The notes beneath the pieces were generated by a model that saw nothing but the letters and a program-made list of their open reading frames with translations, was not told where the DNA came from and made no database searches. This document shows, in pieces, positions 20,255 through 37,706 of a stretch of 64,000 bases of DNA. The stretch is taken from NCBI RefSeq assembly GCF_024464185.1, contig NZ_JANHAU010000007.1, positions 1 through 64,000 of the forward strand. The letters run 5' to 3'. This DNA is from Haloarchaeobius salinus (lineage in GTDB: Archaea; Halobacteriota; Halobacteria; Halobacteriales; Natrialbaceae). The stretch's first letter is position 1, and each line of letters begins with the position of its first letter. Both the position numbers and the translations under genes were made by a program.

Positions 20255-21190
20255 GTGACCGAGAGAGAAACGTTGCTCGCGGAGCTCCACGCGCTCGAAG
20301 AAGAGCTCGGTCGAGCGCCCGACATCGCTGACCTGCTTGAGGCGAATGACGTTTCCCCGCTCACAGCGTTTCAGGACGAGTTCGGGTCGTGGTACCGGGC
20401 ACTATGGGCCGCCGACATCACCCCGACGGAGCCGCCGAGCTACTGGACCAAAGCGGACATCGAAGCCGGACTGTGGGCTCTCGGAGACGGGCCGGATGCG
20501 CCGCCGGTGACCGGCGACCTCACACGGGGTCCCATCTATCCATCGCTGACCGTCATCCACAACCGGTTCGAGAGCTGGGAGGCCGCACTCGAAGCTGCGG
20601 GCTACGACACGCCCGTGGACCCGAACAAGAAGTGGACCGAGGAGGAGTTGCTGGAGGACCTGCTCACACTGGGCGAGGCACTGGACCGAAAACCGAAGGC
20701 GGTCGATGTCGCACACGAGGCGGACATGGCCGCGCCGAGAACGTACGACCACGTCTTCGGGTCCTGGAACGCCGCCCTCGAGGAAGCTGGATTCTCCGCG
20801 ACGCCAGTCGGTAACCCACGAGAGTATTCGGACGAGGAACTCATCAGCGAACTCCGGTCGATAGCTGCGGAGCTCGATCGACAACCACGGATGGTTGATG
20901 TCGGAGAAGATGATGAGTCTCCATCTCCGAGCGTGTTCAGGGATCGGTTCGGGACCTGGCCTGCTGCGCTGGCGGCTGCAGGTATCGAGACAGAATTCGA
21001 GCGAGCTCCACAGTATACCGACTCGGATCTTCTCGACGCACTCCGAACGCTCACAGAGAGAGTTGAGCGCACACCGAATATCGACGACCTGAATGAATTC
21101 GACGATCTGCCGGCACCAGCGACCTACTATCGCCGATTCGAGTCGTTCACCGAGGCGCTGGAGCGCTCCGGAGTCAGCTCGAAGACGTGA
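20255..21190 (+). CDS. Homing-endonuclease-associated repeat protein
   Basis: A 311-residue protein starting at GTG, built of five ~57-residue repeats beginning near residues 2, 62, 125, 190 and 250. Each repeat has a helix (EELLEDLLTLGEALDRKPKA), a linker, and an F/W-containing second half (YDHVFGSWNAALEEAGF; FRDRFGTWPAALAAAGIE). This is the HNH/homing-endonuclease-associated repeat, thought to bind DNA. No HNH or LAGLIDADG nuclease motif is present. Its position right before the origin repeats suggests it may bind the origin or take part in plasmid maintenance. Confidence 0.75.
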   Translation: MTERETLLAELHALEEELGRAPDIADLLEANDVSPLTAFQDEFGSWYRALWAADITPTEPPSYWTKADIEAGLWALGDGPDAPPVTGDLTRGPIYPSLTVIHNRFESWEAALEAAGYDTPVDPNKKWTEEELLEDLLTLGEALDRKPKAVDVAHEADMAAPRTYDHVFGSWNAALEEAGFSATPVGNPREYSDEELISELRSIAAELDRQPRMVDVGEDDESPSPSVFRDRFGTWPAALAAAGIETEFERAPQYTDSDLLDALRTLTERVERTPNIDDLNEFDDLPAPATYYRRFESFTEALERSGVSSKT

Positions 21191-23604: not shown

Positions 23605-24753
23605 TCACGATTGGAGTCGTGAGAGCTCCGTCTCTAACTCCTGAATCCGTTCCTGTTTCTGTTCAAGTGTCGTCTCAAGTTCTTCCACTCGCTCTCGTAG
23701 GAGACGATTTTTCTCCGCGAGGTGGCTCTCGGTCCGAGAAGCAGCGCCCCGTCTTTCAGGCGATCCAGCAGAGTCGGGTGTCACGTCATCCTGTTCGGAG
23801 TCGGCAGCATCGGGGTCGTAGAACTCGGAGGTCTGTGCAATCGCCCGTTCGACGGTCTTCTCGCCATACGTCGACCCGTCGGCGTAGTGTACTTCGTCCC
23901 ATTTCTCACGGAGGAGCCCGGACTGACGGAACAACTCGTCTATTCGATACCGGTCACCGCCTGTCCAGAACGCCAGCAGACAACACAGCGCCATGTCGGC
24001 CTCTGACTGGCTCTCGTAGCCTGCCGTGGACCCCCGCCAGAGTCGCTCGAACTTCTCGCCGTTGCTGGCGTTCTGTGCCCGCTCAAGCAATTCTTCATCG
24101 GGGAGGTCCATTTCCCCTCCTGTCCTAGTCCGGCTCGTCGGCGACCCACGTGCGCCGCCTCGTACGGTTTCGTGGGTGGACTGCGGGGCCTGAGTGGTGT
24201 CCGAATCCGGAGCCAGGTACTCCTCGTATACCTCTGCGAGTGCGGTCTGTCGCTCCTGGACCGTCCCCGGCGTCGCCTCGACACGGTCCCCAGTCATCGT
24301 GAAGAACCGCGCCGTCTCGTACATCTCTACCGACCCCTTACGGCTTCTGTCACCGGGGATCTCACCCTCGATGATCACGTGGAAGCCCGTCCCCGACGGC
24401 GACACCTCGGTGAAGGATTCCAGTGTTACCACGATCTCTTGCGCGTCCTCGGATGGAACACCCGTCTCCGGGTCGCGACAGTCGTCCAGGTCCACGCCAA
24501 CGAACGGATCCTCGTCGGTGAACACGAAGCCGATACCGTCGGCCCCAGTGGAACTGTACTCGACAGCTGTCTCGAACGACCGCCAGGTCTCCTCGTCGGT
24601 CGCCGACGCAAACCCACCGTCACCTGGAATGACTGGTACCTTCGTATCCTTCCCATCCCGCTCCTTCACCCGCCAGCACACCCACTGGTCTCGCGACCGC
24701 AATGCCTCCGGAATCGCTCCCGCATCGACCAGTGTTTCGCAGCCCTCGTTCAT
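23605..24753 (-). CDS. Plasmid/phage-type primase-polymerase-like protein
   Basis: A 382-residue protein. The N-terminal half (RDQWVCWRVKERDGKDTKVP, GIGFVFTDEDPFVGVDLDDC, SPSGTGFHVIIEG) is the archaeo-eukaryotic prim-pol-like domain seen in NrS-1-type polymerases and haloarchaeal plasmid proteins; VGVDLDD supplies the metal-binding acids. Next comes a helical bundle with CCLLAFWTGGDRYRIDELFR and STYGEKTVERAI. The last 50 residues are coiled coil (ERVEELETTLEQKQERIQEL). It lacks a helicase domain. It probably primes DNA during plasmid replication or transfer. Four iteron-like repeats lie just upstream. Confidence 0.72.
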   Translation of the reverse strand: MNEGCETLVDAGAIPEALRSRDQWVCWRVKERDGKDTKVPVIPGDGGFASATDEETWRSFETAVEYSSTGADGIGFVFTDEDPFVGVDLDDCRDPETGVPSEDAQEIVVTLESFTEVSPSGTGFHVIIEGEIPGDRSRKGSVEMYETARFFTMTGDRVEATPGTVQERQTALAEVYEEYLAPDSDTTQAPQSTHETVRGGARGSPTSRTRTGGEMDLPDEELLERAQNASNGEKFERLWRGSTAGYESQSEADMALCCLLAFWTGGDRYRIDELFRQSGLLREKWDEVHYADGSTYGEKTVERAIAQTSEFYDPDAADSEQDDVTPDSAGSPERRGAASRTESHLAEKNRLLRERVEELETTLEQKQERIQELETELSRLQS

Positions 24754-24896
24754 GCTCGACCACCCTGTTCGCGAGCCGCCCGAAACGGAGCCTGAATACT
24801 ACTCATATTTCGAATATTTTGGCCAGTCACCTGATTTCTCGATTTTCTCGGGAAAACGAGTTCTCCCCCCTCTATACTAGTCGTTAATTGAGACCG

Positions 24897-25052
24897 TTTT
24901 ACCCTGGACAGTCTCGCAGTCTTGCGGTTATTACCCTGGACACCAATTCCAGAGAAATCCCACTGCTGAAGTTTACCCTGGACAGCAATCTTCGCCTGTC
25001 GAAACCCGCACTTTGAGTGAGTCAAAACTGCACTTTTCTCTGTCCAGGGTAA
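24897..25052. repeat. Iteron-like TTACCCTGGACA repeats
   Basis: TTTTACCCTGGACAG (24897-24911), TTACCCTGGACA (24931-24942) and TTTACCCTGGACAG (24972-24985) are direct repeats spaced 32 and 42 bases apart. CTGTCCAGGGTAA (25040-25052) is an inverted copy. They fill the 340-base gap before the primase-like gene. They share CTGGACA with ORB family B but not its G-rich tail. Candidate binding sites for an initiator or regulator. Confidence 0.65.
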
Positions 25053-25093
25053 CGCGATCAGTCGAGTTCTCATTTTGGCAGTGTCCATAGTAT

Positions 25094-28000
25094 TCATTTT
25101 GATATGTTATCGGAAGAACTGGGCGATTTCATCTCCTCGGAGAGGTCGATTCCCTCGTACACGGTGACCCGTTCGCCGTCGACGCGCTGGCGTCCAGGCT
25201 CGACCGGAACGTGGTCAGATAACTTCCGGGCGAACCAGACCTTGTTCGTCCCGCTAATCTCGTACTCGTCGATCCACGACGAGTACGCCTCAAAGAGGTT
25301 ACTCTTTGGAACGCTGGCGTCAGGATCAACAGTGATGTGGCGATTGACGAACACCGCGACACCGTCGTCGTCCGGGTCCAGTTCGAGAGTCGTCTCCGAT
25401 TCCTCCGTTTTATCCGAACCCCCGGCAGGGGTGGTAGTAGTCATGTCTCCGTCTGGCTCTGCGTGGGAGTCTTGACCCTGCCCACCTGTGCTCCTCTCGT
25501 CTAATGCTGAGAGGTCGGCAGCGACCGGGATTGTGTCCCCGTCCTCGTACCACAGTGGCGGTTCATCGCTGGGGAGGACGAGGATGTGATAGTCGTCAGG
25601 TTCGAACGCTGGATTCGGAAAGTCGCGAGATGGGAGGAACGGCCGTTTCACAACCACCCAGTCTTCCTCGAATGCCGTTTTCGATTCGTAGGTGTGATTC
25701 TGCCCCTGAGAGTATACCGTGTACTGGGCCGTCTCAGGGTCGTAGCTGAAGTGCGCTGGCAGGTCATCTTTCGAAATCGGACCCTCAGCATCAAAACGAG
25801 CGAAGACGCGGTCTCCGTTCGTGAGCTCATACTTCGAGTCCGTCCGATTCCAGAAAGTCCGGTCAGAACCGTCGGTTCTGGGCCGGACAGCCGTAACACC
25901 TCCTCTGGTATTCGCACCGCCGCCGAAGGTGAGCCGTTCATCCGTCGCGTAGAACCGCTCGGTCCCATCGGCCAATTCGCGCACCGGCGTTTCGAGAATG
26001 TCCTCGATTCTAGCAGCCTCTGCCGTCCGCTCGTCCTCGTCAGGTCGCACCACGAACAGCGGGACCTGGTCCATCAACTGCGCACGTCTGAGATTCTGCA
26101 GGACCTTCGCAGGCTTCGTCGGTGTCGTCGTCTCGGCTTCGATGGCGAACTCGCTGTCCAGGTCAGGATGCGTCGCGATTCCGTCGGGGCGCTCACTCCC
26201 GTCCTGTTCGACTAGCTCGACGGCGAACCCGAGACCTGTCAGGGACTCCTCGATGTCGAACAGCAGCTCGTCGTGCTCGCTCCCGCCAGCGGCAGACACG
26301 TTGCCCGTTTCTGGTGCCGAGATATCCTGCCCGTCATCACTCAATCGGACGACTACAGCATCGTTCTCTACGGAAAGGTCGACCTCGACGAGAGGAGACT
26401 CCCGTCGGACCTCGGTGAGTTCGTCGATACTCGTCTCCAGGTCGGAGTCGGACGCACTCTCCAGCCGAGAGAGGGCTTCGTCGTCGACGACCTCGACGGG
26501 CACCCAGCCGTTTTCTTCGTGTTCACCACGCCGGAGCTGGACCGCACGAATCGACTCGGCCATCACCCGGTCGAGCGCCAGCGATTCCGGGGCGGTATCG
26601 CCATCGTAGTCACGATAAATGAGGTTCCGAAGAATCTCCGTATCCGTCGGCGGGTCAGTCCCGTATCGCTGCAGACTTGCCTCGATGATGTCGTCGATCT
26701 CGTCACTCGACCGCAGCGGCGGATACGCCGGGAACGTCCGCAGCAGTACGGGCTCGGAGTACCGGCCACCCGCGAGCGGGATCTTCGTCCAGATTTTGAA
26801 CTGGTCGGTCGTGATGAGGTCCTCGGCGGTGTAGTCACGGAACCGCTTCATCAACAGGTCGGCGTCGTCGCTGTCATTCACCGAGAACGTTAGCAGGTTG
26901 TCGCAGTTGTTCTGCATCGCTTTCAGCGTATCCTCGTCGAGCTGCGAGGGATACTGCGACGCCAGGGTCACCGAGAGTCGCATTGAGCGAGCACGGGCGA
27001 GCATCGACTCGATATCCAGATTCTCGCTGGCGATCTCGTCGAACTCGTCACAGACCACGAAGTACGGGTCTGGCGTGGTATCCTGCTGGTAGGAGCGACG
27101 CTGCACCGCAGACCAGAGATTTCGCATCACACCCAGCGTGACCATCTTCTTGATGTCCGTGTTCTCGACGGGCGTGCGGACGATGACGATGCGGTCGTTC
27201 TCGATGATGTCGTCGAAGTCGATGGTGCTTGTCCGGTGGGCGATAATCCGCCGAATCACGCCGTTTTCGACCCAGGATTTGATCCGCTTGAGCAGCGGGC
27301 GGACGTCTTCGTCCTCCATCTTCGCGATCTCCTTGCAGAACTCGCTGATGTACGGGTCCTCGACATCTTCTGCGAAATCCTTGCGGCGTTCGGCATTCAG
27401 GAGGATGAAGTACATATCGATGATCGAGAACTGCTTTTCGGACTTCATCATCGCGCGAGCCATCGACTCGGTGATGGCCTCCATGTTGATGCCCCAATAG
27501 TCGCTCGTGTCGAACACCGCTTTCAGGTTCTCGACCCGGCTTTCGATCTCGTTCTCGCGCTCCTCGAGTGTCTCGCACTCGGGCAGTTCGAGGAAGTTCA
27601 TCCCGACTGTCTTCTCGTGGGATGTCGACCCAGACTCGATCCAGACCACATCGTCAAGGCGATGCTCGGGGAGCATTCGGAGCAGTTCCCGCGAGTCAAC
27701 GCCCTTCGGTTCGCAGAACATGAAGCCGTAGCCGGCGTATGCCCACTGCACCATCTGGTTGCGCTCTAATGTCGACTTCCCGTACCCGGTCGTCCCGGCG
27801 ATCCAGATGTGCCGGAACAGCGAGCTGAACTTGAGTGGTGCTTCACGGAACCCCGTCTGTGGGTCTTCGGTGTAGCCAATCCAGAGCGGGGGTTGGTCCT
27901 CGTGAGCGGCCGACTCGAACATTTCTCTGACGAACGGGCCCGCAACTACCTCTCCATCCACTGTCTCCGTCAGGACTTCCTTGCCGCCGACACGGATGGA

Positions 28001-28165
28001 TTGCTGTTCGACGATGTCGTACAACGGACGAGTCTTGGACTCCTCGACGTACTCGGTCTGTTCGCTGTCACGGTCCGCACCGTCGTGCGGCACGGGCAGT
28101 GACGAATCCTCTTCGTCGTCATCGTCCCCACCGAAGAAACGGTTAAACACGGTCCTCACCCCCAT
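25094..28165 (-). CDS. VirD4-type coupling ATPase fused to a PD-(D/E)xK-like and a C-terminal winged-helix domain
   Basis: A 1023-residue protein. Residues about 95-490 are a VirD4/TraG conjugation ATPase: Walker A GTTGYGKST (124-132), Walker B YFVVCDEFDE (368-377), and the SQYPSQLDED and FRDYTAEDL segments. Residues about 630-725 look like a PD-(D/E)xK nuclease fold: P660-D661, then FAIEAETT (E676, E678) and KPAKVLQNL (K684, K687). The final 70 residues (KSNLFEAYSSWIDEYEI, NKVWFARKLSDHV) resemble the winged helix at the C-terminus of phage D5-type primases. It overlaps the upstream gene by 23 bases. It should dock DNA to the secretion channel; the extra domains may cut or recognise that DNA. 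Confidence 0.8.
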   Translation of the reverse strand: MGVRTVFNRFFGGDDDDEEDSSLPVPHDGADRDSEQTEYVEESKTRPLYDIVEQQSIRVGGKEVLTETVDGEVVAGPFVREMFESAAHEDQPPLWIGYTEDPQTGFREAPLKFSSLFRHIWIAGTTGYGKSTLERNQMVQWAYAGYGFMFCEPKGVDSRELLRMLPEHRLDDVVWIESGSTSHEKTVGMNFLELPECETLEERENEIESRVENLKAVFDTSDYWGINMEAITESMARAMMKSEKQFSIIDMYFILLNAERRKDFAEDVEDPYISEFCKEIAKMEDEDVRPLLKRIKSWVENGVIRRIIAHRTSTIDFDDIIENDRIVIVRTPVENTDIKKMVTLGVMRNLWSAVQRRSYQQDTTPDPYFVVCDEFDEIASENLDIESMLARARSMRLSVTLASQYPSQLDEDTLKAMQNNCDNLLTFSVNDSDDADLLMKRFRDYTAEDLITTDQFKIWTKIPLAGGRYSEPVLLRTFPAYPPLRSSDEIDDIIEASLQRYGTDPPTDTEILRNLIYRDYDGDTAPESLALDRVMAESIRAVQLRRGEHEENGWVPVEVVDDEALSRLESASDSDLETSIDELTEVRRESPLVEVDLSVENDAVVVRLSDDGQDISAPETGNVSAAGGSEHDELLFDIEESLTGLGFAVELVEQDGSERPDGIATHPDLDSEFAIEAETTTPTKPAKVLQNLRRAQLMDQVPLFVVRPDEDERTAEAARIEDILETPVRELADGTERFYATDERLTFGGGANTRGGVTAVRPRTDGSDRTFWNRTDSKYELTNGDRVFARFDAEGPISKDDLPAHFSYDPETAQYTVYSQGQNHTYESKTAFEEDWVVVKRPFLPSRDFPNPAFEPDDYHILVLPSDEPPLWYEDGDTIPVAADLSALDERSTGGQGQDSHAEPDGDMTTTTPAGGSDKTEESETTLELDPDDDGVAVFVNRHITVDPDASVPKSNLFEAYSSWIDEYEISGTNKVWFARKLSDHVPVEPGRQRVDGERVTVYEGIDLSEEMKSPSSSDNISK

Positions 28166-29303
28166 CTACCCAGCTCCCGGCATCTGGACCGGTAGCCTGG
28201 TCATCTCTCGTCGGTGATTGTACTGGGTTGCCTCTCTCGTCGTACTTGACACTGTCAGCGGGAATGCGGTCACCGCGCTGAGTGTAGCGCCAGTCGATCT
28301 TCGGGGTCGTGATCTCGTTGTTCGGGATGTGTGCGACGCCGGCGAGCTCGTCGACGGTCATGATCATCTCGCGGTCGACCCACTCACGGGCGGCCATTCG
28401 CTCGACGAACTCGGAGAGCTTGCGCTGGCGCTTTGATTTGCGACGATGCGAGACGGGCGTGTCGTCGAGTCCTTGCTCGGTGATGGCGTTGTAGTACTTC
28501 CTGAACATCCCCGCGACGCCTCGAGCGCGGGCTTCAGCTTCGGTTTGATCACGAGAGACGGCGAGGACACGGATATTGACGTGGAAGGCCTGCTGGCCGC
28601 GCTGTCGTTCGATGGTATCTGCTGCTTGCTTGTCTTTCGCGGTTGCCGGGCGAACTCTCGGGTTCAGCCAGCCGACCGAGGTTCCCTGTCGGAGTCCGTG
28701 GGCGAGGTCGTCGACGCTGTTGTGTTTGAACCGGTCGCCGTCGGTCCAGGACTGCTTCGCGGGCCTGAAGACGACCTGTGTGACGACCTTGCTGTCGTCG
28801 AGAGACAGCATCTCGCTCGTGATCTCGCCATACGGGTCGACCTCGAACCCCTCGGCGTTGTGGTGTCGGATCGGATAGTATGGCATCTTCTCCATCGACA
28901 GCCACGCGCCAGCGACATACTCGTCGGGCTCGATCTGGGGGAACGCATGGCCGCTGTCGACTGGGAATACCTCCGAGTTGGCGTAGTTGTTCCCCACACG
29001 ACGCCGGAACTTGTCCGCGGCCGCCTCCGTCGCGGCGTGCATGTAAAACGTGATCACTCCCTGGTCGAACCACACCTCGAAGGAGTGGTGGTCACTCGTG
29101 TTCTTCCCCCGCCAGTTCGTCGTCACGTCGTGGACCGACTGGAGGACGCCAGCGCCGTCGACGATGCCATCGTTCTCCTTGTACGGGCGGATTCGGAGTA
29201 GTGTGCCGCCGGTGTTCTGCTGTGTCCACGTCAGTGGCTCGTCGATATCGAGCTGTGTCGCCTCGTACTTGGGGTCGCCACCGAAGAGTCCGAGCTTACC
29301 CAT
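28143..29303 (-). CDS. Conjugation-cluster protein between VirB4 and VirD4
   Basis: A 386-residue soluble acidic protein from the ATG at 29303. It is located between the two secretion ATPases and overlaps both. It has a mixed alpha/beta N-terminal region (ATQLDIDEPLTWTQQNTGGT, FEVWFDQGVITFYMHAA, FRRRVGNNYANSEVF) and a basic helical region (SHRRKSKRQRKLSEF). This could be a family conserved only in haloarchaeal transfer clusters; I cannot name it. Position suggests a core cytoplasmic component. It has no Walker motif and no relaxase HUH motif. Confidence 0.65.
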   Translation of the reverse strand: MGKLGLFGGDPKYEATQLDIDEPLTWTQQNTGGTLLRIRPYKENDGIVDGAGVLQSVHDVTTNWRGKNTSDHHSFEVWFDQGVITFYMHAATEAAADKFRRRVGNNYANSEVFPVDSGHAFPQIEPDEYVAGAWLSMEKMPYYPIRHHNAEGFEVDPYGEITSEMLSLDDSKVVTQVVFRPAKQSWTDGDRFKHNSVDDLAHGLRQGTSVGWLNPRVRPATAKDKQAADTIERQRGQQAFHVNIRVLAVSRDQTEAEARARGVAGMFRKYYNAITEQGLDDTPVSHRRKSKRQRKLSEFVERMAAREWVDREMIMTVDELAGVAHIPNNEITTPKIDWRYTQRGDRIPADSVKYDERGNPVQSPTRDDQATGPDAGSWVDGGEDRV

Positions 29304-32300
29304 CGGACTCACCTCCACTAGTCCCGCCATCTGTTCGTGGAGCGACCTCGCGCGCCTGCTTCTCTTGGGCGGTTGCAGCGACAGCGTGCAGCAGGTCGTC
29401 GGCGGAGAGTCCTTCCTCGAGGAGTTGCTCAGCAGCTTCCGGTGACAGTCCGTAGCGGCTCGTCAGCGCGTTCTGCTTTGCTTGCTCCTCGACGAACGAC
29501 TCGAAGTCCGCGTACTCGTCGGGAACGTCCGTGATCGCATCCTCGATGAACGCTTTGTCCTCGGGTTCGTAGTCGATGACGCGGCGTTCGAACGCGTCAG
29601 CGACGACGTGAACCGGGTAGGTGCCGTGCTCTTCGATCCGGACGAGCGATTCGGAGTAACCGAGTTCGTCTCTTCCGGCGTCGGCACTCCGGATGTACTG
29701 ACGTTGTTCGCGGGTTAGTCCGATTTTGTCGGCGGTCTCGTCGTCGAGGTCGGGGAGCTTGTGGAAGACCTTGATTGGGCACATCCCGAGAATCTTCTCG
29801 GCCTGCTCGCTCTCGTAGAACTCCTGGGCGGTCTGGGAGAGCAGCACCATCCGCAGTCCGGCGTGGCGCTGGTGTCGGAATGCGGTTTCGAGGAAGTCCA
29901 GGTTCGCCCTGTCCTCGAAGAGGTAGTGAGCTTCGTCGATTGCGAGCTCGACGTTCCGGTCGGTGCGTTTGGCCTGCTGGTACACTGTCGAGAGCAGCAG
30001 CTGCATCAGGAACGTCTGCCGGTCGATCCCCGAGGCACTGCCCTCGATTTGCCCGAGGTCGATGTACACCACCTTGTTGTCACCTTCCAGAATGTCCACC
30101 TCGGATTTCTTCGAGAGGTTCTCGTACGCCCCGCCCTCGCTGAACGGCTGGAGTGCAATCGCGAGGTCGTCGGCGTACTGGGTGGCACGTTCACGAGCGG
30201 AGTCCGACGCAGCGATGTTGTGGTCCTCAGGATGGTCGGAAATATCGGCGAGGGCGTCGAGGACGTCCTGCATCGTCGGGGAGTTCGCTGGCGTGTGGGT
30301 GCTCACGTCGCCGGCGACGACACCGGCCTGCCGGTATGCCTCGTCGATCGCGTATGAGAGCACGCCGGTCTGGGCACCGAGCGTGATGTCCCTGCCTTCG
30401 AGGAAGTTCTCCAGTACGGCGAACACCTCGTCTTTCTTCGCCGAGAGGGGAGAGATCCCATCGTCAGCGTCGACGACGTGCTGCGGCGTCTGGCGGATCT
30501 CTAGTGGGTTCAGTTTCGTATCCCCACCCACGGTGATAGTCTTCGCATCGAGTGCGTCCGCGATGCCCTGGAACCCACCGACGGGGTCGATGAGGACGAG
30601 CATTGTGTCGTTCCGACGTTTCATCATCCGCAGATGCCGCATGATTCCGCCGAACGTCTTCCCCGCGCCGGGCATCCCGACCACGAGTTCGCTGTGACCA
30701 GTCTCGAGTGCCCACGGGTTAATTCGGACCGGGGAGCCGTTGTGGCCGTGGTAGCCGTACTCGATGCCGTCCCCCATCATCAGGTAGTCAGAACTGAACG
30801 GGAACATCGCGCCGACGGCCTGGTTGGTCATGGTCGACATCCGGTCGCGACCAAGCTCGTTTCGCCCGAGTGGTGAGACCGTCGCGAGACCTTTCTCCTG
30901 CCAGCGGCTCGCGACCTTGAGCGTACAGTTCGAGGGAGCGTCCTTCACCAGCGAGCGCAGACGGTTGGTCTGGGAGTCGAGGTCGTCCTTGCTCTCCGCG
31001 GTGAGCCGGATGAAGACCCCACCACGGTAGAACGAGGCTTCGTTTGCTCGGACCAGCGCACGCATGTACTTCGCCCGCTGGATATCATCCTCCAGGTCCT
31101 CTTCGTGGATTCCAGCGGCATCGTGCTGGTTGACCTTGAGGTCCGAAATCCAGTCGGCCATCATGTCCTGGGCGGACTGGTTGTCGAACGGATCGAGGTG
31201 GACGCTGATGTCCGTGTTCAGGTCTGTCTCGAGCAGCACCCGTTCGAACATCCCCTCGACTGGCTCTTCCGGGAACTGGTCGATCCAGAACGTCCGCACG
31301 AACGTCTCGTCGTCGATGACGGCGTACGTCGGATTCCAGTCGACCGTTGAGGGAGCAATGATCGACTGGTGGCGGTGGGAGACACTATCGTACAGTTTCG
31401 TGGTCGACAGCCCCTCAGACTCACTCTCATCTTTGGTATCGTCTTCAGCCGTCTCTTCGTCGTCAAGCGGGAACTCCCACTCGGCCTCACCATCTGCAGC
31501 TGTTGCCTCGACAGATAGCACAGAGTCGTCACTATCTGTGCTCACGACGTCCTCCGGACTGGGCGTCGACGGAACGCCGTCGCTGATGCCGTGAGAAACG
31601 ATCGGGAACGTACCGATCGCGTTCGAGAGATTGCCGTACCTCTCCCGCTGACAGCTCCAGTACTCCTTGGTGACGCGAGCGAGCTCGTACGAGTCGACCG
31701 GCGAAATAGTACACCGGTACAGTGACGTCCCGCCACGCCGAATCTGCGATAGTCTGGATTCCAGCTTCGACTGTTTCAGCTGGTCGCGATCCTCGGGCGA
31801 GAGGTCGCTCGTCTGGAACCGACTGAACACAGACCCGACGACCGGCAGCGAGGCGAGGTACGTGACGACGCTGTCATCTGCTCCGCTGTCTGCTTCGATA
31901 TCGGCGTCGGTGACTGCGGTGATGATGTAGAACTCACGAACCGTCGTGGTTTCTGAGTCGGGTTCGCCATTGTCGTCCGTGCTCTCTTCGATCCTCGTTC
32001 GCAGCAATCGCTTGAGGACTGGACGGGACTGGACGTCGCCATCGCGGAGTCGCTCGCGGTACGTGTGGACGAGGTCGTCCCGGTCGACGGTTCGGCTGGT
32101 CGTGTAGATCTTCACCGGGAAGTCGATGTTCGCGTTCACGAACTCCGAGAACGACTGCACAGCTTTCGACCAAGCATCGTCATCCTCGAGGGAGAGGTTC
32201 GCCGGTGTGACCCGCATTGCGCCGACGAGCGCACCGTCCGTCCGCTCGATGCCGTAGGGATACACGCGCTCCAGCCGCGTCATGTACCGGACCTCGCTGT

Positions 32301-32619
32301 TATCCTCCCCACCGTGAGTGTAGGACTTGTTCTTCACCGCCCACGAGAGCCGTGCGCCCAGCCACTCGGTGAGCCAGAGGTGTCTCGGTTTTACCTTGTG
32401 CAGGAGCAGCAATAGAATCGCCAGCATCAGTCCGAAGCCGAACGTTGGGATCGTGAGCGTCGCTGGAACGAGTGCAGCGGCGACGAAGGTGACGAATCCC
32501 ACGCCGAGGAATAACACGAGTTCAGCGATGCTGTAGCCTCGCAAGAAGGCGGTCGTCCCCCCGAGGGACTGATGGATTCTTCTGGCACTGTACTCGCCTG
32601 TATTGGATTTCGTACTCAT
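29296..32619 (-). CDS. virB4: VirB4-type secretion ATPase with fused VirB3/PrgI-like membrane domain
   Basis: A 1107-residue protein. The N-terminal ~110 residues contain two close transmembrane helices (IAELVLFLGVGFVTFVAAAL, FGFGLMLAILLLLLH), like VirB3/PrgI, followed directly by the VirB4 part. Walker A is GMPGAGKT near residue 645, and Walker B LAIDEAHYLFED near 896. The motif LRMVLLSQTAQEFYESEQAE is typical of VirB4 arginine-finger regions. A variable acidic insert lies near residues 375-410. This ATPase powers assembly of the type IV channel. It overlaps the downstream gene start by 8 bases. Confidence 0.88.
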   Translation of the reverse strand: MSTKSNTGEYSARRIHQSLGGTTAFLRGYSIAELVLFLGVGFVTFVAAALVPATLTIPTFGFGLMLAILLLLLHKVKPRHLWLTEWLGARLSWAVKNKSYTHGGEDNSEVRYMTRLERVYPYGIERTDGALVGAMRVTPANLSLEDDDAWSKAVQSFSEFVNANIDFPVKIYTTSRTVDRDDLVHTYRERLRDGDVQSRPVLKRLLRTRIEESTDDNGEPDSETTTVREFYIITAVTDADIEADSGADDSVVTYLASLPVVGSVFSRFQTSDLSPEDRDQLKQSKLESRLSQIRRGGTSLYRCTISPVDSYELARVTKEYWSCQRERYGNLSNAIGTFPIVSHGISDGVPSTPSPEDVVSTDSDDSVLSVEATAADGEAEWEFPLDDEETAEDDTKDESESEGLSTTKLYDSVSHRHQSIIAPSTVDWNPTYAVIDDETFVRTFWIDQFPEEPVEGMFERVLLETDLNTDISVHLDPFDNQSAQDMMADWISDLKVNQHDAAGIHEEDLEDDIQRAKYMRALVRANEASFYRGGVFIRLTAESKDDLDSQTNRLRSLVKDAPSNCTLKVASRWQEKGLATVSPLGRNELGRDRMSTMTNQAVGAMFPFSSDYLMMGDGIEYGYHGHNGSPVRINPWALETGHSELVVGMPGAGKTFGGIMRHLRMMKRRNDTMLVLIDPVGGFQGIADALDAKTITVGGDTKLNPLEIRQTPQHVVDADDGISPLSAKKDEVFAVLENFLEGRDITLGAQTGVLSYAIDEAYRQAGVVAGDVSTHTPANSPTMQDVLDALADISDHPEDHNIAASDSARERATQYADDLAIALQPFSEGGAYENLSKKSEVDILEGDNKVVYIDLGQIEGSASGIDRQTFLMQLLLSTVYQQAKRTDRNVELAIDEAHYLFEDRANLDFLETAFRHQRHAGLRMVLLSQTAQEFYESEQAEKILGMCPIKVFHKLPDLDDETADKIGLTREQRQYIRSADAGRDELGYSESLVRIEEHGTYPVHVVADAFERRVIDYEPEDKAFIEDAITDVPDEYADFESFVEEQAKQNALTSRYGLSPEAAEQLLEEGLSADDLLHAVAATAQEKQAREVAPRTDGGTSGGESDG

Positions 32620-32644: not shown

Positions 32645-33838
32645 TCACCTGTCTCTCCACCGCGAGACCTTCCGCTTCGTTCGCTTGAACGCCTCCTTGT
32701 TGAGTTTCGACGAGTCCTTCGAGTCTTCGGAAACCCGGCCGGGGAGTGCCGGTATCTCTACGTCCTGTTGCATCGTCCGGCCTGAGCGTGGCGTCGCGTT
32801 CGAACTTCCGGGGGTGCTGCCAGATCGTCGTCCAGAGTCTCCGGAACCAGAGTTCGAACGTGAGAACGAAAGCAGGGGTTTCTGTGCAAGGTCACGGTGT
32901 ACCTGCACCGCACCCTGTGCTCCCCGTTTCGCAGTTTGATGAGCTGTCGATGTCGCCGATGAGGCTGCCCGCGTTGCAGGCCCAGTCCCTTTCCGAGCGA
33001 CCCGCTGAATCATCGGACTACTCCAGTAGATTGTGAGAACGCTTGCGATACAAGCCCCTGGAATCAGCATCAGTGCCATGAGGGCGTTGAATGCGATTGT
33101 CGAGGCGTCGAGACTGAACAGGTTCATTTCCCAGCCCATTCGGAACAAGACTGCTGCTGGAAGTCCTGCCAGTAACAAGCCTGGATAAACCGCTGCTGCT
33201 CGCTTCGCGATACGTGAAACCGGACTGAGCGGCCAGATGTCGAACGCCCAGAACGCTCCGAGCAACGGCATCGTTAACGTCAATACGATAATACCGAGCC
33301 ACCTGAGCGCGTAGACGAGTGCTGCGATGACGACGATTGAATTCTCAACAAAGTAGATGATCAGCATGATGAAAACGCCACCAGTAACCGCTTTTGCACC
33401 ACCTTCGAACGAGCTGGTCATCTCCTCAACCGGCGCCAACACCATTCCGATATCGTTGATGAAGTGAAGCGGCAGCGAGACGGCCGGAAACCAGACGAAT
33501 GAGCCCATGAAGACCATGGCGGCACGCCGAAGCAGTTTCTTTCGCCGGTATGGGCTAATCGAGCCACTTCGCACGCCAATGTAGGCAAACCCGATGAACA
33601 AAAATGCGAACGTGAGTGGCAGGATGTACGTCAGATATACATCTGAGTAGAGTTCTGACCATGGGCCATTACTGGGCCGGCCTATTACGATATATCGGTC
33701 GCCCAGCGGGTGTGGAACACCAACAATCCTCTGAATGAGTGCCTGAATCAGGTTCGTCAGAAAGTTCCCAATCTGTTCAGTTACCGTCCCAATAATCGAC
33801 TCTATGGCTTGCTTGATTTGTTCTGCGAACCAGCCCAT
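32645..33838 (-). CDS. VirB6/TrbL-like polytopic membrane protein
   Basis: A 397-residue protein. An amphipathic N-terminus (EQIKQAIESIIGTVTEQIGN) is followed by about six membrane helices between residues 70 and 280 (e.g. YILPLTFAFLFIGFAYIGV, GGVFIMLIIYFVENSIVVIA). A long Ser/Gly-rich basic cytoplasmic tail follows. The topology and position upstream of virB4 match VirB6-type channel proteins. It is co-transcribed with its neighbours: 2 bases after the lipoprotein stop, 25 before virB4. Confidence 0.75.
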   Translation of the reverse strand: MGWFAEQIKQAIESIIGTVTEQIGNFLTNLIQALIQRIVGVPHPLGDRYIVIGRPSNGPWSELYSDVYLTYILPLTFAFLFIGFAYIGVRSGSISPYRRKKLLRRAAMVFMGSFVWFPAVSLPLHFINDIGMVLAPVEEMTSSFEGGAKAVTGGVFIMLIIYFVENSIVVIAALVYALRWLGIIVLTLTMPLLGAFWAFDIWPLSPVSRIAKRAAAVYPGLLLAGLPAAVLFRMGWEMNLFSLDASTIAFNALMALMLIPGACIASVLTIYWSSPMIQRVARKGTGPATRAASSATSTAHQTAKRGAQGAVQVHRDLAQKPLLSFSRSNSGSGDSGRRSGSTPGSSNATPRSGRTMQQDVEIPALPGRVSEDSKDSSKLNKEAFKRTKRKVSRWRDR

Positions 33839-33840
33839 AT

Positions 33841-34746
33841 CTATGCTTCCTCACCCTCGCTTGTTCCGTCGCCACTCCCGGTCGATTCGACTAAAGAAAG
33901 TACACAGGAGCCGTTCTCGTCCGTCTCGTACCGAACTCTCTGTGAGTACGAAGGATTCTCTTGACTTACACGGAGGCTAGCAGATATTGTGAACGTGATT
34001 TCATCGTGGTCATCACAATCCAGATACTGAGATCCGGAATACGTTTTATAAATCCGGCTAGTCATTTGCCCCACAGTCGCGGCAGGAGGAACCAGTCTCA
34101 GTATTTGCTGTGAAACGTCCCGAATGGTAGTCACATCCAATGGCGTATCCTCGAATTGGAGTTCTTCCACGAACGCTGGCCCGGTTCCAGTATTCTCCAT
34201 GAGTACCTGTGCGAAGTAGGAGGGTGGATCCTCACCTTGGTAGGTCATCTCGGGATGGTTCTTCGCCCACCGAATCTCCGTGATCGACACGTCCGGACGA
34301 ATCTCGAGTTCGACTTCTTCCACGGAGTTTTCACCATCGACGGCTATCAGGCGATACGTCCCAGGTGTGTAGCCGCCACTCGAGAACCCCCAGTCGTCTG
34401 AGAGCCGGAGCGACACCTGTGTCGCGCCTGTACTCACACCTGCTCGACTGTGGAGCTCGCCATCTGGATCGATCAGGTTCACCTGGCTGACAGAGGCGTC
34501 CTCTGCCAGCTCGACCTGCACGTGTGTCGTCCCAATCTGGACAGCGGTGAAGACGCTGGTCTCGTCCGTCGGGGTCCGTGACCCCTGCTCAGGTTGGGGC
34601 GAGCCCTCTAGTTCCGATGTCGTTGACGGCTGTGTCGAGTTCGAGGAACAGCCAGCTAGCGCTATCGCACCAGCGGGGAGTGACCGTAATAGCGTTCGGC
34701 GGGCGATACGACTCGACTGTGCTGTGGATTCAGTGTGGTCAGTCAT
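33841..34746 (-). CDS. Tat-exported lipoprotein of the conjugation cluster
   Basis: A 301-residue protein from the ATG at 34746. The signal SRIARRTLLRSLPAGAIALAGC has the twin arginine and lipobox used for haloarchaeal Tat lipoproteins. After a Ser/Thr linker there are two beta-sandwich-like segments (VQIGTTHVQVELAEDASVSQ, SITEIRWAKNHPEMTYQGED). It is probably on the cell surface, within the transfer apparatus. It overlaps the end of the upstream gene by 8 bases. No enzymatic motif. Confidence 0.7.
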   Translation of the reverse strand: MTDHTESTAQSSRIARRTLLRSLPAGAIALAGCSSNSTQPSTTSELEGSPQPEQGSRTPTDETSVFTAVQIGTTHVQVELAEDASVSQVNLIDPDGELHSRAGVSTGATQVSLRLSDDWGFSSGGYTPGTYRLIAVDGENSVEEVELEIRPDVSITEIRWAKNHPEMTYQGEDPPSYFAQVLMENTGTGPAFVEELQFEDTPLDVTTIRDVSQQILRLVPPAATVGQMTSRIYKTYSGSQYLDCDDHDEITFTISASLRVSQENPSYSQRVRYETDENGSCVLSLVESTGSGDGTSEGEEA

Positions 34747-36517
34747 GGGTGGTGGTTTCGTGAATACCGAGAAGCGCGCCATCTGAGGCGTAGTCCATCC
34801 CGAACACCAGCAGCGTGACCGGGATGAACCACAGAATCGTCACGACTGCCAGATTAATCAGCGTCGGTACCGACGGGAATGCCAGCGGGAGCTGGTCGAC
34901 CTCGCTCGACGGTGCATACGGCTGGGTCGTGTCCCACCAGGCCGCCGGCTCGTACCGGGCTTCGACGATGTCTGGTGGGTTCGAGACAGTGACGACCGCC
35001 ACGCCACTTGCATTGAGGCTTGCATTTCTCGACCCGATGTGAACGACCCCGGACGTGACGGGAGCACCAGTTGCGTTCTCTCGAACTCGCACCTGGACTG
35101 TTGCTTCGGTCGTGTCGGACTCGAGGACAGTCACGGAGACGTTCGTCGCTCGAACGGTCCGAACCGTCTCTGCAGACACGGTCCGCGAGTGCGAGTGAAC
35201 GATGCCGTGAATGGTGACCTGCTCGAAGTCCTCTGCACCGAGTACGGTCGAACTGACTGCGAGCTGGCTAGTCGTGGGGTATGGCTCTCCACTGCTGACG
35301 TGGAAGTTCTCGGGGACTGTCGGGGCAGTCTGCTGCGTAGCTTCCCGGTGGTCGATTGCGAGCAGCGGCCGCGACCAGTTCGGCTGGATGCCCTCAGAGA
35401 CGCGAGCTCCTGCAGGACGCGGGAACGCATGCACTTGGAGCGGCCGGACCGACGACCGATGGCTTTCGTTCCAGATCGCCGTCGACGTCGTCAGCTCGTG
35501 CCAGTTCTCGTTCCCGGCGGTGTAGTACAGGAAGTTGTTCCGAACCCTAGTCTCGTGTTCGTCATCGACGGTCACTCGTCCCCACGTGCTTGCAGGGTTC
35601 AGAATCGCTCCGGTTCGATCCGGCGTAGCGTCGAACTCGACCCGCTCGATGGTCGCCTCCGAGAGGTCGTTCACCCGGACGCTCCGGCGACTCGAGACCG
35701 TCACGTTGTCTGTGTGCCGTTCGACGGTGATGTTCCACGAGGAGTCACACCTGCGTGTACTCCCGTTGAAGTCGTTGCAGGTCCGGATGATCTCATTGAC
35801 CTCGACGACAACTTCGGCCTGAATAGTCAGGTTCGGACGCCCACTGAGGTCCGAGTATTGGAGTGTCGTCGTGTGGCCGCCACCCGTGTCCTGTGTCTCG
35901 TTGTTCGTCTCCAGGGCGACCTGCTGGATACGCGCCTGGCTGACCTCCCACGTTCGCTGGACCGGACCGATCGGGTCGTCGTCTGGTGTCCGAACCCGGT
36001 AGTCAGCGGCCGTGAGTACCTCTCCCTCGGGCGCGATGTAGTGCGTCGTACCATTCGACCGATGGAGGATGGTCGAGGGCTGGACGGCGTAAACGGCGAC
36101 GTACGCATCACGGATGAACTCGCTATCCCGGAGGTTGACGCCGTCGGGATGAACGGATTGGTTTGTGGTTCCCGCCGTGAAATCCTGCAGATCACCGCTG
36201 TTCCAGGCTTCGACCGCTTCAGGTGGCCGGTCGAAGGGCACGTCGGTCGTCATCGCGAGCCGGCGGAAGAACTCTGACTGTGAAATGTTCCAGGAGTCGA
36301 ACGCACCCCTCGTGAGATTCGGCTCGTCGGTATCTTCGGACCAGAGCCGCTGGAAGGTGCTGTTGTTGACTCCGTACGCGGGGCCGTCCGCCGGCGTTGT
36401 CGAGTTGTTCGGTTCAGGATCCGGAACGTGACTGGGTGCTCCTGCTGTCGCGGTGACTGCCAGACTTGCCAGTACGAGCGTGAGCAGTCCGACAGCCAGC
36501 GGGGTTCCGAATTGCAT
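34739..36517 (-). CDS. Large surface protein of the conjugation cluster
   Basis: A 592-residue exported protein. A signal peptide (VGLLTLVLASLAVTATAGA) is followed by a ~500-residue extracellular region rich in N-glycosylation motifs. A single C-terminal membrane helix lies near residues 558-577 (LINLAVVTILWFIPVTLLVF). The outer part contains many beta strands and one CNDFNGSTRRC segment that could form a disulfide. It is probably the outward-facing, possibly mating-contact component. No family name recognised. Confidence 0.65.
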   Translation of the reverse strand: MQFGTPLAVGLLTLVLASLAVTATAGAPSHVPDPEPNNSTTPADGPAYGVNNSTFQRLWSEDTDEPNLTRGAFDSWNISQSEFFRRLAMTTDVPFDRPPEAVEAWNSGDLQDFTAGTTNQSVHPDGVNLRDSEFIRDAYVAVYAVQPSTILHRSNGTTHYIAPEGEVLTAADYRVRTPDDDPIGPVQRTWEVSQARIQQVALETNNETQDTGGGHTTTLQYSDLSGRPNLTIQAEVVVEVNEIIRTCNDFNGSTRRCDSSWNITVERHTDNVTVSSRRSVRVNDLSEATIERVEFDATPDRTGAILNPASTWGRVTVDDEHETRVRNNFLYYTAGNENWHELTTSTAIWNESHRSSVRPLQVHAFPRPAGARVSEGIQPNWSRPLLAIDHREATQQTAPTVPENFHVSSGEPYPTTSQLAVSSTVLGAEDFEQVTIHGIVHSHSRTVSAETVRTVRATNVSVTVLESDTTEATVQVRVRENATGAPVTSGVVHIGSRNASLNASGVAVVTVSNPPDIVEARYEPAAWWDTTQPYAPSSEVDQLPLAFPSVPTLINLAVVTILWFIPVTLLVFGMDYASDGALLGIHETTTHD

Positions 36518-36537: not shown

Positions 36538-37008
36538 TCAGAACGGCTTGACGCAGTCGGAGAACCCGAATCCCATCTGGGTCCCGATTTTATCGACGAG
36601 CTCAGGCGACAGGAGGGCCAGAACGACGATTCCGAACCCGATTGCGGACATGACGAGTCGTTCCTTGGCCTTGTTTTTCTTCTCGGGATTCCCCCCGGCT
36701 CGCATGTACGAGAGCCCGCCTTTGCTCATGTAGTAGCCAGTTGCAGGCAGGCCGAGCCCAGCAACGGCACCGAAGACGAGATCAATTCCTGTCTCGACGC
36801 CGGTGTCACAGTAGACGTTTCCAACGTCATCCTGTGCTGCGGCGGTCCCGGTTGCAAGGAGGATGAACGCAATCCCGATGAGGCCAGAAAGGGTGTTTGC
36901 AGAGACCTGCCGCACGCCGTGGTGGATGGACTCGTGGGTCTGCGTTCGGATTTGTGCTTGGTAGTCAGCGATTCGCTCCTGTATCTTGGTAGCAGATTCG
37001 CGCATCAT
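36538..37008 (-). CDS. VirB2-like two-helix membrane protein (possible pilin)
   Basis: A 156-residue protein from the first of two tandem ATGs at 37008. After a polar N-terminus there is a cleavable-looking helix (SGLIGIAFILLATGTAAAQD), an outer loop with two cysteines, a second helix (TGIDLVFGAVAGLGLPATGY), a basic loop, and a third helix (RLVMSAIGFGIVVLALL). This resembles VirB2/TrbC-type pilins, which are processed and have two helices. It is the first gene of the minus-strand transfer operon. Confidence 0.6.
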   Translation of the reverse strand: MMRESATKIQERIADYQAQIRTQTHESIHHGVRQVSANTLSGLIGIAFILLATGTAAAQDDVGNVYCDTGVETGIDLVFGAVAGLGLPATGYYMSKGGLSYMRAGGNPEKKNKAKERLVMSAIGFGIVVLALLSPELVDKIGTQMGFGFSDCVKPF

Positions 37009-37280
37009 GTACTCTGGTTTGGGTTGTGGCTGTGAACGGGGATGATCGTCGCGCTGGGCTATAACAACCCATCTATCTGACACTAGCTTCTCTATCCTGA
37101 GTGGCTGACTGCAGTCCACTATACTTAATTGAATCTACCTAGCATATTAAACTATAGGTTTTTAAGAACAGTACATTACCCGGCGCATTTCTTTGTTTAA
37201 GAGCACCCTGCTGTCCGATGATTTTGAAAGATCTCTGTTTTCATGGCGCTGGGGTGTATCTACCGTAAGAGAGACCGGAG

Positions 37281-37706
37281 ATGAATGAAGTCGTAAACGG
37301 GCTGTTCGTCGGAACACTCGAGGACGCAGGAAACAGTTCACTCCTCGATGAGCAGGGTATCTCAGCTATTGTTTCCTTGACCTACACTGAACCAGAAGAT
37401 GGTTTCCCGCAGGATAAGTCGGTTTCCAGGTGGCCGATGATGGACGGACCACAGAATTCACGAGAACAGTTCGAGCAGGCTGTGGCCGTTGTTGAAACCC
37501 ATTTAGAACAGGATACGGAAGTACTCGTCCACTGTTCTGCTGGTGCATCTCGCAGTCCAGCAGTCGCAGCGACTGCACTTGCAATACACTCAAATTTAGA
37601 GCTTGAAGAAGCATTCAAACGAATTTCGAGCCGACGAGATGCAGTTGAGCCGCATAACGCGCTAATCCAGCAAGCTGCGAGAGTGTTTTCTGACACATCA
37701 ATATAA
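37281..37706 (+). CDS. Dual-specificity protein phosphatase
   Basis: A 141-residue cysteine phosphatase with the P-loop HCSAGASRSP (C85, R91) and likely general acid D55 in the MMDG loop. It starts MNEVVNGLFVGTLEDAGNSS, typical of small DSPs. It should remove phosphate from Tyr or Ser/Thr residues or another phosphoester. It is divergent from the transfer operon with a 272-base gap, and does not obviously belong to any neighbouring pathway. Confidence 0.85.
   Translation: MNEVVNGLFVGTLEDAGNSSLLDEQGISAIVSLTYTEPEDGFPQDKSVSRWPMMDGPQNSREQFEQAVAVVETHLEQDTEVLVHCSAGASRSPAVAATALAIHSNLELEEAFKRISSRRDAVEPHNALIQQAARVFSDTSI

Follow-up and report, generated by a model that had tools for sequence, protein, structure and literature searches.

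A haloarchaeal VirD4-type ATPase with nuclease-fold and winged-helix domains as the probable reader of its own oriT-like origin

The window analysed here, a stretch of 64,000 nucleotides from Haloarchaeobius salinus (contig NZ_JANHAU010000007.1, positions 1 to 64,000), holds a type IV secretion gene cluster whose VirD4/TraG-type ATPase is fused to a winged helix (wH1), a PD-(D/E)XK-fold domain and a C-terminal winged helix of the D5/RFX type (wH2). The open reading frame (ORF) of this VirD4 lies on a 218-kb contig of the 3.85-Mb genome. It is probable, in our view, that this protein serves a relaxase-less, conjugative type IV secretion system (T4SS) of archaea as coupling ATPase and at the same time as its own origin-recognition factor, the array of short repeats (iterons) behind its gene being an oriT-like (origin of transfer) site. 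The domains, the nuclease fold and its invariant acidic residues, the iterons and their co-variation with wH2, the near-constant pairing with a primase gene and the absence of four relaxase families were all computed directly.

Residues 369-447 of VirD4 match TraG-D_C (PF12696) at 27.7 bits against the Pfam cut-off of 22, Walker A and Walker B motifs are present as in VirD4/TraG coupling-protein ATPases, and the gene stands beside VirB4- and VirB6-type channel genes, the context of a coupling protein. The first-pass annotation, made from the sequence alone, had proposed a VirD4-type ATPase, and the TraG-D_C match bears it out. The Pfam and NCBIfam matches include no superfamily 3 (SF3) helicase domain, and the motor is of the TraG/VirD4 type. 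The PADLOC model mad8 (MADS8) also matches the ATPase domain (E 1.6e-17), probably through general VirD4/HerA similarity. Behind the ATPase, the AlphaFold2 model of residues 526-1023 (predicted local distance difference test, pLDDT, 85.8; 54 sequences) contains wH1, the nuclease-fold domain and wH2 (930-1017); wH1 (526-621) is an extra winged helix that had been overlooked. The modelled wH2 resembles the DNA-binding domains of RFX proteins (Z 11.7-12.0; RFX5 Z 12.0), the origin-binding domain of phage P4 (Z 9.0) and the C-terminal winged helix of AsfvPrimPol (Z 8). The Pox_D5 profile of Pfam scores 18.8 bits on this VirD4, under its cut-off of 21.4, and 28.3 bits, over the cut-off, on the homologue at locus L085; together with the RFX and P4 matches this upholds the D5 primase-like C-terminus suggested at first.

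The spacer of ~340 nt between the VirD4 stop codon and the primase gene, which lay beyond the region first annotated, is a conserved non-coding array. Across elements, such spacers hold 4-6 copies of an element-specific 11-12-bp iteron, a AACCAACTAGTATAGA core and often a hairpin. The array in the window has four perfect copies of TGTCCAGGGTAA, one of them inverted, where 0.17 matches with at most one mismatch would be expected by chance in the window; the eight exact copies in the whole genome all fall within two arrays. Other elements have 4-6 copies of differing iterons at similar spacing (e.g. TGTTCAGGGCAA, TGTCCACGCA, TGTTCCACCCA and TGTTACGGCA). For a few elements, among them L065, L080, L151 and L189, the automatic repeat finder gave no sensible iteron, and these were counted as output. 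A stem of at least 5 bp stands behind the core in 69 of 105 elements, versus 14 after shuffling, and the exact core pattern is present in 39 of 391 genomes, with a variant core in many family members. We rejected a 115-aa ORF (24750-25097) as a gene: it overlies the conserved array, and its homologue was found in no fetched locus.

The iterons vary together with wH2. Over 44 elements, iteron distance was correlated most strongly with distance in wH2 (rho 0.65), followed by the ATPase (0.58), the middle region (0.55), the first winged helix (0.51), the nuclease domain (0.50) and the primase (0.23). A partial Mantel test of iterons against wH2 given the ATPase returned 0.42 (permutation p 0.0005), and one of iterons against the primase given wH2 returned -0.18. 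Position 976, directly before the WF of the recognition helix and a valine here, is Val in 15/15 elements with GGTA-type iterons and in 0/91 others. This rule was set down first and then obeyed by L118, L205, L207 and more than 50 newly tabulated negatives. Val976 needs 5 changes on a tree of the VirD4 body built without wH2, and near-identical VirD4 bodies bear different wH2-array pairs. Among the wH2 columns that co-vary best are those of the recognition helix and the wing (mean z 8.1 for wH2 versus 5.4 for the rest), and some single columns of the VirD4 body score as high as wH2 columns. We infer from this co-variation that wH2 probably binds DNA sequence-specifically, and because wH2 co-varies with the array, the recognition part of the first-pass proposal is now specifically supported. 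A pairing of GACAG iterons with Arg at 976 was suggestive by eye in two lineages and was set aside, GACAG being too common in spacers for a clean count. Neither the array nor the residue rule was found described in the open literature searched; subscription papers and preprints were outside that search.

The core of the nuclease-fold domain is alpha-beta-beta-beta-alpha-beta in the models of residues 526-1023 and 624-895 (the latter with pLDDT 87.8), as the structure prediction proposed at the outset was meant to decide. Its top structural matches are mostly PD-(D/E)XK nucleases, namely Can2 (Z 9.3), PaqCI (8.9), the small subunit of R.BspD6I (8.3) and Hjc (7.8); Z-scores of 7-9 are moderate, and there was no Foldseek match at E <= 0.001. 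Since the sequence profile of the domain gave nothing significant against PDB and Pfam, with weak single matches to Mrr_cat and AHJR-like, the fold assignment rests on the structure models. H631, Q654, D661, E676, E678 and N691 are invariant among 39 divergent relatives. D661, E676 and E678 are invariant across the haloarchaeal classes described below, and D...ExE is also kept in non-haloarchaeal relatives. At position 684, in contrast, most close relatives have Arg, Asn or Tyr and conserve K687 instead. Because K684 varies, the motif is better written D661...E676-x-E678; the nuclease-like domain first proposed thus stands in its fold and acidic residues and not in its lysine, and K684, named as a target for mutagenesis, is a poor choice where D661, E676 and E678 are invariant. 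Catalytic sites of the D-ExE kind are known, and the site here resembles that of BamHI. Fold and invariant acidic residues together suggest that the domain may cleave DNA.

Relatives of this VirD4 occur in 247 of the 391 genomes of the class and are haloarchaeal; they are also found in 117 plasmid records, 116 of which MOB-suite calls non-mobilizable. The ATPase-nuclease fusion, which the first-pass annotation had suggested looking for in other haloarchaeal clusters, recurs there in four classes. Class A (~1020-1120 aa) and class B (~1150-1545 aa) have the nuclease domain and wH2. Class C (~2400-3300 aa; L087, L088, L089, L075) keeps the ATPase and the nuclease domain, and in L088 (2258-12199) a TOPRIM/DnaG-like region (weak PF08275 match) is followed by a C-terminal wH2 in one chain. 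Behind this giant gene, inverted CCCCCGGACA repeats flank a CGCAAGACTGCG box. Class D (L090-L101) has the ATPase and the nuclease domain without wH2, and the DNA behind the gene yielded neither a wH2 nor a primase or core; the part of the protein beyond the nuclease region is variable, and a restriction-modification-like cluster comes next in L091. In Halobacteriota outside the haloarchaea (L212-L217), VirD4-nuclease fusions are mostly ~840-890 aa and lack wH2, with D...ExE kept where read. L212 has a VirB4-like gene directly upstream of the fusion. Because wH2-less relatives of ~890 aa exist outside the haloarchaea, the VirD4-nuclease fusion looks older and wider, with wH2 added.

By profile search, nearly all class A and B elements with downstream DNA available have an NrS-1-type primase behind VirD4, the exceptions being truncated or broken loci and L066/L210; in one class B subgroup (L175-177, L182-184, L186, L195, L197-199, L201 and L203) this primase was not found. 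The primase in the window matches PF22763 at 106 bits and PDB 7rr3 at E 1e-40, and has both the primase and the helix-bundle domains. The N-terminal part of the phage primase family phrog_1829 matches it (E 7e-97), and the C-terminal part matches the wH2 of VirD4 (E 2e-5), as though the two proteins shared out the parts of one phage primase.

None of the relaxase families PF03432, PF08751, PF02486 and PF03389 was found in 13 whole genomes, this one included. The search went family by family, each with a working positive control, and was not a scan of all proteins; Rep-Arvir and other HUH families were not searched. Within this compass, the lack of a known relaxase, first noted for the cluster, extends to the rest of the genome. 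NZ_CP101874.1, a complete 90-kb plasmid with the same cluster, has no relaxase annotated among the genes listed for it in PLSDB, whose table is incomplete; it has an Orc1/Cdc6 gene of its own ~20 kb from the cluster. PMC9905601 states that a recognisable relaxase is encoded by none of the archaeal conjugative plasmids and that their mechanism might not be that of bacteria.

A second array in the same genome bears on how the site is used. On contig C8 (63600-64100; L221, L222) there is a relic with array and core, the tail only of VirD4, and a truncated primase without a start codon. Its iterons are identical at 48/48 bases and its core at 13/13, versus 317/424 (75%) in the DNA around them (Fisher p 4e-6). 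No second VirD4 of the family was found in this genome. This conservation suggests a cis-acting site still in use, possibly in trans.

We propose that wH2 would bind the element-specific iteron array behind its own stop codon, and that the ATPase ring would assemble there, on the DNA of the element itself, from several loaded VirD4 subunits. Making the cut or processing the end, at the conserved CCAACTAGTATAGA core or close to it, would fall to the fused PD-(D/E)XK domain. The motor would then pass the DNA to the channel of VirB4, VirB6 and pilin, and the downstream NrS-1-type primase would prime second-strand synthesis. On this view the array would be an oriT-like origin, and the motor itself would read it. 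The place of the cut, the direction of transfer and the single- or double-stranded state of the substrate are parts of this scheme that we infer. An earlier suggestion was that one protein could recognise, nick or trim DNA and feed it to the channel; recognition and channel feeding by one protein are supported, recognition specifically by the co-variation of wH2 with the iterons, and nicking or trimming is suggested by the fold and acidic residues. More tentatively, and with somewhat less than even confidence, we extend the scheme to a single-protein relaxosome, in which a swappable wH2 (position 976 helping to set specificity) would read the origin, the PD-(D/E)XK domain would cut in place of a tyrosine relaxase, the ATPase would drive DNA into the channel and a phage-type primase would complete the strand. 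Plasmids with an array and no VirD4 might then be mobilisable in trans, as the C8 relic may have been.

Several observations weigh against the idea of a self-read transfer origin. Partial Mantel tests are liberal with related sequences, and many of the rows are close relatives; the GGTA regular expression was refined after the first look to include the TC-A-GGGTA form; and with only 5 independent switches, a sign test on independent pairs cannot reach 0.05. The array adjoins wH2, so part of their correlation could stem from the two recombining together. Class D systems seemingly do without wH2, array and primase. L066/L210 have wH2 and an array of six iterons, and no primase was found there by profile search. 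In the three loci read from the class B subgroup (L175, L184 and L198), a different ORF of unproven identity stands directly behind VirD4, and the C8 orphan array is a single case. The ORF in L175 (3787-5298, +) encodes at least 504 aa and has matching ORFs in L184 and L198; its motifs were suggestive of another primase by eye, Pfam and PDB gave nothing, and we make no such claim. Finally, the canonical PD-(D/E)XK lysine is not conserved, for which reason the nuclease domain could be inactive or structural, and because winged helices of this type serve replication origins in P4 and pRN1, the array could be a vegetative replication origin (oriV).

The unconserved lysine speaks for a nuclease-fold domain that is inactive or has another task, such as end trimming, defence or the cutting of incoming DNA, with an unrecognised or host enzyme making the nick; for archaeal DNA import systems, HerA-NurA has been proposed as the source of single-stranded DNA (PMC9905601). 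We regard this as rather unlikely given the invariance of D661, E676 and E678, the persistence of D...ExE outside the haloarchaea and the BamHI-like form of the site.

As an oriV, the array would be served by wH2 and the primase as a P4- or pRN1-like initiator in which a VirD4-type ATPase replaces the SF3 helicase, for vegetative replication of the element or of an excised form. There are precedents: P4 alpha binds origin repeats through its winged helix, and in pRN1 the gene for a primase-helicase-winged-helix protein is followed directly by the origin (PMC4234260). That phrog_1829 spans both the downstream primase and the VirD4 wH2, and that a single chain holds both a TOPRIM/DnaG-like region and wH2 in class C, point the same way. 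However, the carrier of wH2 is a coupling ATPase within a VirB4/VirB6 operon, and Orc1/Cdc6 initiators are also present, both on the contig of this VirD4 (three Orc1/Cdc6-like genes) and on NZ_CP101874.1. We therefore consider an oriV unlikely and tentatively favour a transfer origin; a joint transfer-and-replication origin is also conceivable.

The array and its TA-rich core stand directly upstream of the primase gene, so the array could also be an operator, with VirD4 regulating transcription through wH2 and the core acting as a TATA-like promoter. Plasmids commonly couple regulation with transfer close to their origins. However, the core lies ~120-130 nt ahead of the primase start in the window, a long distance for haloarchaea, in which most transcripts are leaderless. 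On C8, the orphan array has been kept despite its primase lacking a start codon, and L066/L210 retain their iterons with no primase found, making this reading improbable. It is more improbable still that the wH2-iteron correlation is a mere by-product of recombination moving one contiguous block: the adjacency of the wH2 coding sequence to the array and the near-identical VirD4 bodies with different wH2-array pairs would fit, but the primase at the array's other end does not co-vary, recognition helix and wing are among the strongest columns, and a residue-level rule that recurs across lineages and held in new elements would be harder to explain by linkage.

Several known systems come close to the one seen here. 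In Streptomyces, the FtsK/VirD4-superfamily motor TraB reads plasmid-specific short repeats (clt) in relaxase-free transfer (PMC4170104, PMC12857230), and the co-variation supports the notion that the motor here may read short sites on its own plasmid as TraB does. Unlike this system, TraB moves double-stranded DNA without other T4SS subunits; here there are VirB4, VirB6-like and pilin-like genes, a D5/RFX-type winged helix as reader, a fused PD-(D/E)XK-fold domain and a primase gene behind. P4 alpha and pRN1 ORF904 recognise an origin through a C-terminal winged helix (repeats in P4, a stem-loop downstream of the gene in pRN1) in company with a primase (PMC4234260), but theirs is a primase and SF3 helicase in one replication chain, whereas here a VirD4-type motor with a nuclease-fold domain has a separate primase, fused only in class C. 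With VirD4/TraG coupling proteins it shares the ATPase domain, the TraG-D_C match and an operon with VirB4 and VirB6-like genes; it differs in its added nuclease-fold and origin-reading domains, in that no relaxase partner was found, and in its N-terminus, where most coupling proteins have a transmembrane domain and no hydrophobic or transmembrane stretch was seen on reading the sequence by eye. The archaeal Ced and Ted systems are T4SS-related and transfer DNA without recognisable relaxases, but they are import systems, and the available part of the source describes no element-specific iteron array or winged-helix reader for them (PMC9905601). The downstream gene is a close homologue of the primase and helix-bundle part of the NrS-1 phage primase-polymerase (PDB 6a9w, 7rr3; E ~1e-40), although the part matching the C-terminus of a phage primase of this kind sits on VirD4.

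The cluster runs in the order pilin-like protein, two surface proteins, TrbL/VirB6-like protein, VirB4, 395-aa protein, VirD4, NrS-1-type primase and Orc1/Cdc6 (Table 1). The 395-aa neighbour was considered as a hidden relaxase and had no Pfam, NCBIfam or PADLOC match; its match to the N-terminal part of phrog_5156 makes it look like a coupling-protein domain that has split off. Further out are a 311-aa protein of repeated units matching phrog_22655, of unknown function (20255-21190, +), and, adjoining the cluster, a small dual-specificity phosphatase-like protein with an HCSAGASRS motif (37281-37706, +).

Table 1. Positions in the window of the VirD4 domains, the array and the neighbouring genes
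Feature	Position	Strand	Basis or remark
VirD4/TraG-type ATPase + wH1 + PD-(D/E)XK-fold domain + D5/RFX-type wH2, 1023 aa	25094..28165	-	ORF, Pfam, AlphaFold2, structural matches
ATPase domain, residues ~100-480; Walker A GTTGYGKST 124-132, Walker B DE 373-374	26726..27868	-	
wH1, residues 526-621, MarR / ORC1-WH-like	26303..26590	-	Model and structural matches
PD-(D/E)XK-fold domain, residues 628-735; D661, E676, E678 invariant	25961..26284	-	Alignment, models, structural matches
wH2, D5/RFX/P4-origin-binding-type winged helix, residues 930-1015; V976 in recognition helix	25121..25378	-	
Conserved non-coding spacer with iterons, box, core and G-rich hairpin; putative origin	24754..25093	-	
Iteron TGTCCAGGGTAA, inverted copy	25041..25052	+	
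Iteron TGTCCAGGGTAA	24973..24984	-	
Iteron TGTCCAGGGTAA	24931..24942	-	
Box AACCGCAAGACTGCG	24915..24929	-	Common to several elements
Iteron TGTCCAGGGTAA	24899..24910	-	
Core ACGACTAGTATAGA	24871..24884	-	Family consensus AACCAACTAGTATAGA
G-rich stretch behind core	24850..24870	-	Most relatives have a clear hairpin of 5-8 bp; weak in the window
NrS-1-type primase-polymerase with helix-bundle domain, 382 aa	23605..24753	-	Pfam, PDB profile match
395-aa protein	28143..29330	-	With VirD4, matches two ends of single-chain family phrog_5156
VirB4-type ATPase	29296..32619	-	
TrbL/VirB6-like membrane protein	32645..33838	-	
Two conserved secreted/surface proteins (33841-34782 and 34739-36517)	33841..36517	-	
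Pilin-like protein	36538..37119	-	Gene at equivalent position of NZ_CP101874.1 annotated pilin

With a candidate reader, nuclease, origin and primase named, and a residue-level rule to go with them, the question of relaxase-less transfer in archaea becomes directly testable. The arrangement points to a way in which plasmids of archaea could select DNA for transfer and process it with no relaxase of the bacterial type, and the array could help to find mobilisable haloarchaeal plasmids among those that relaxase-based tools call non-mobilizable.

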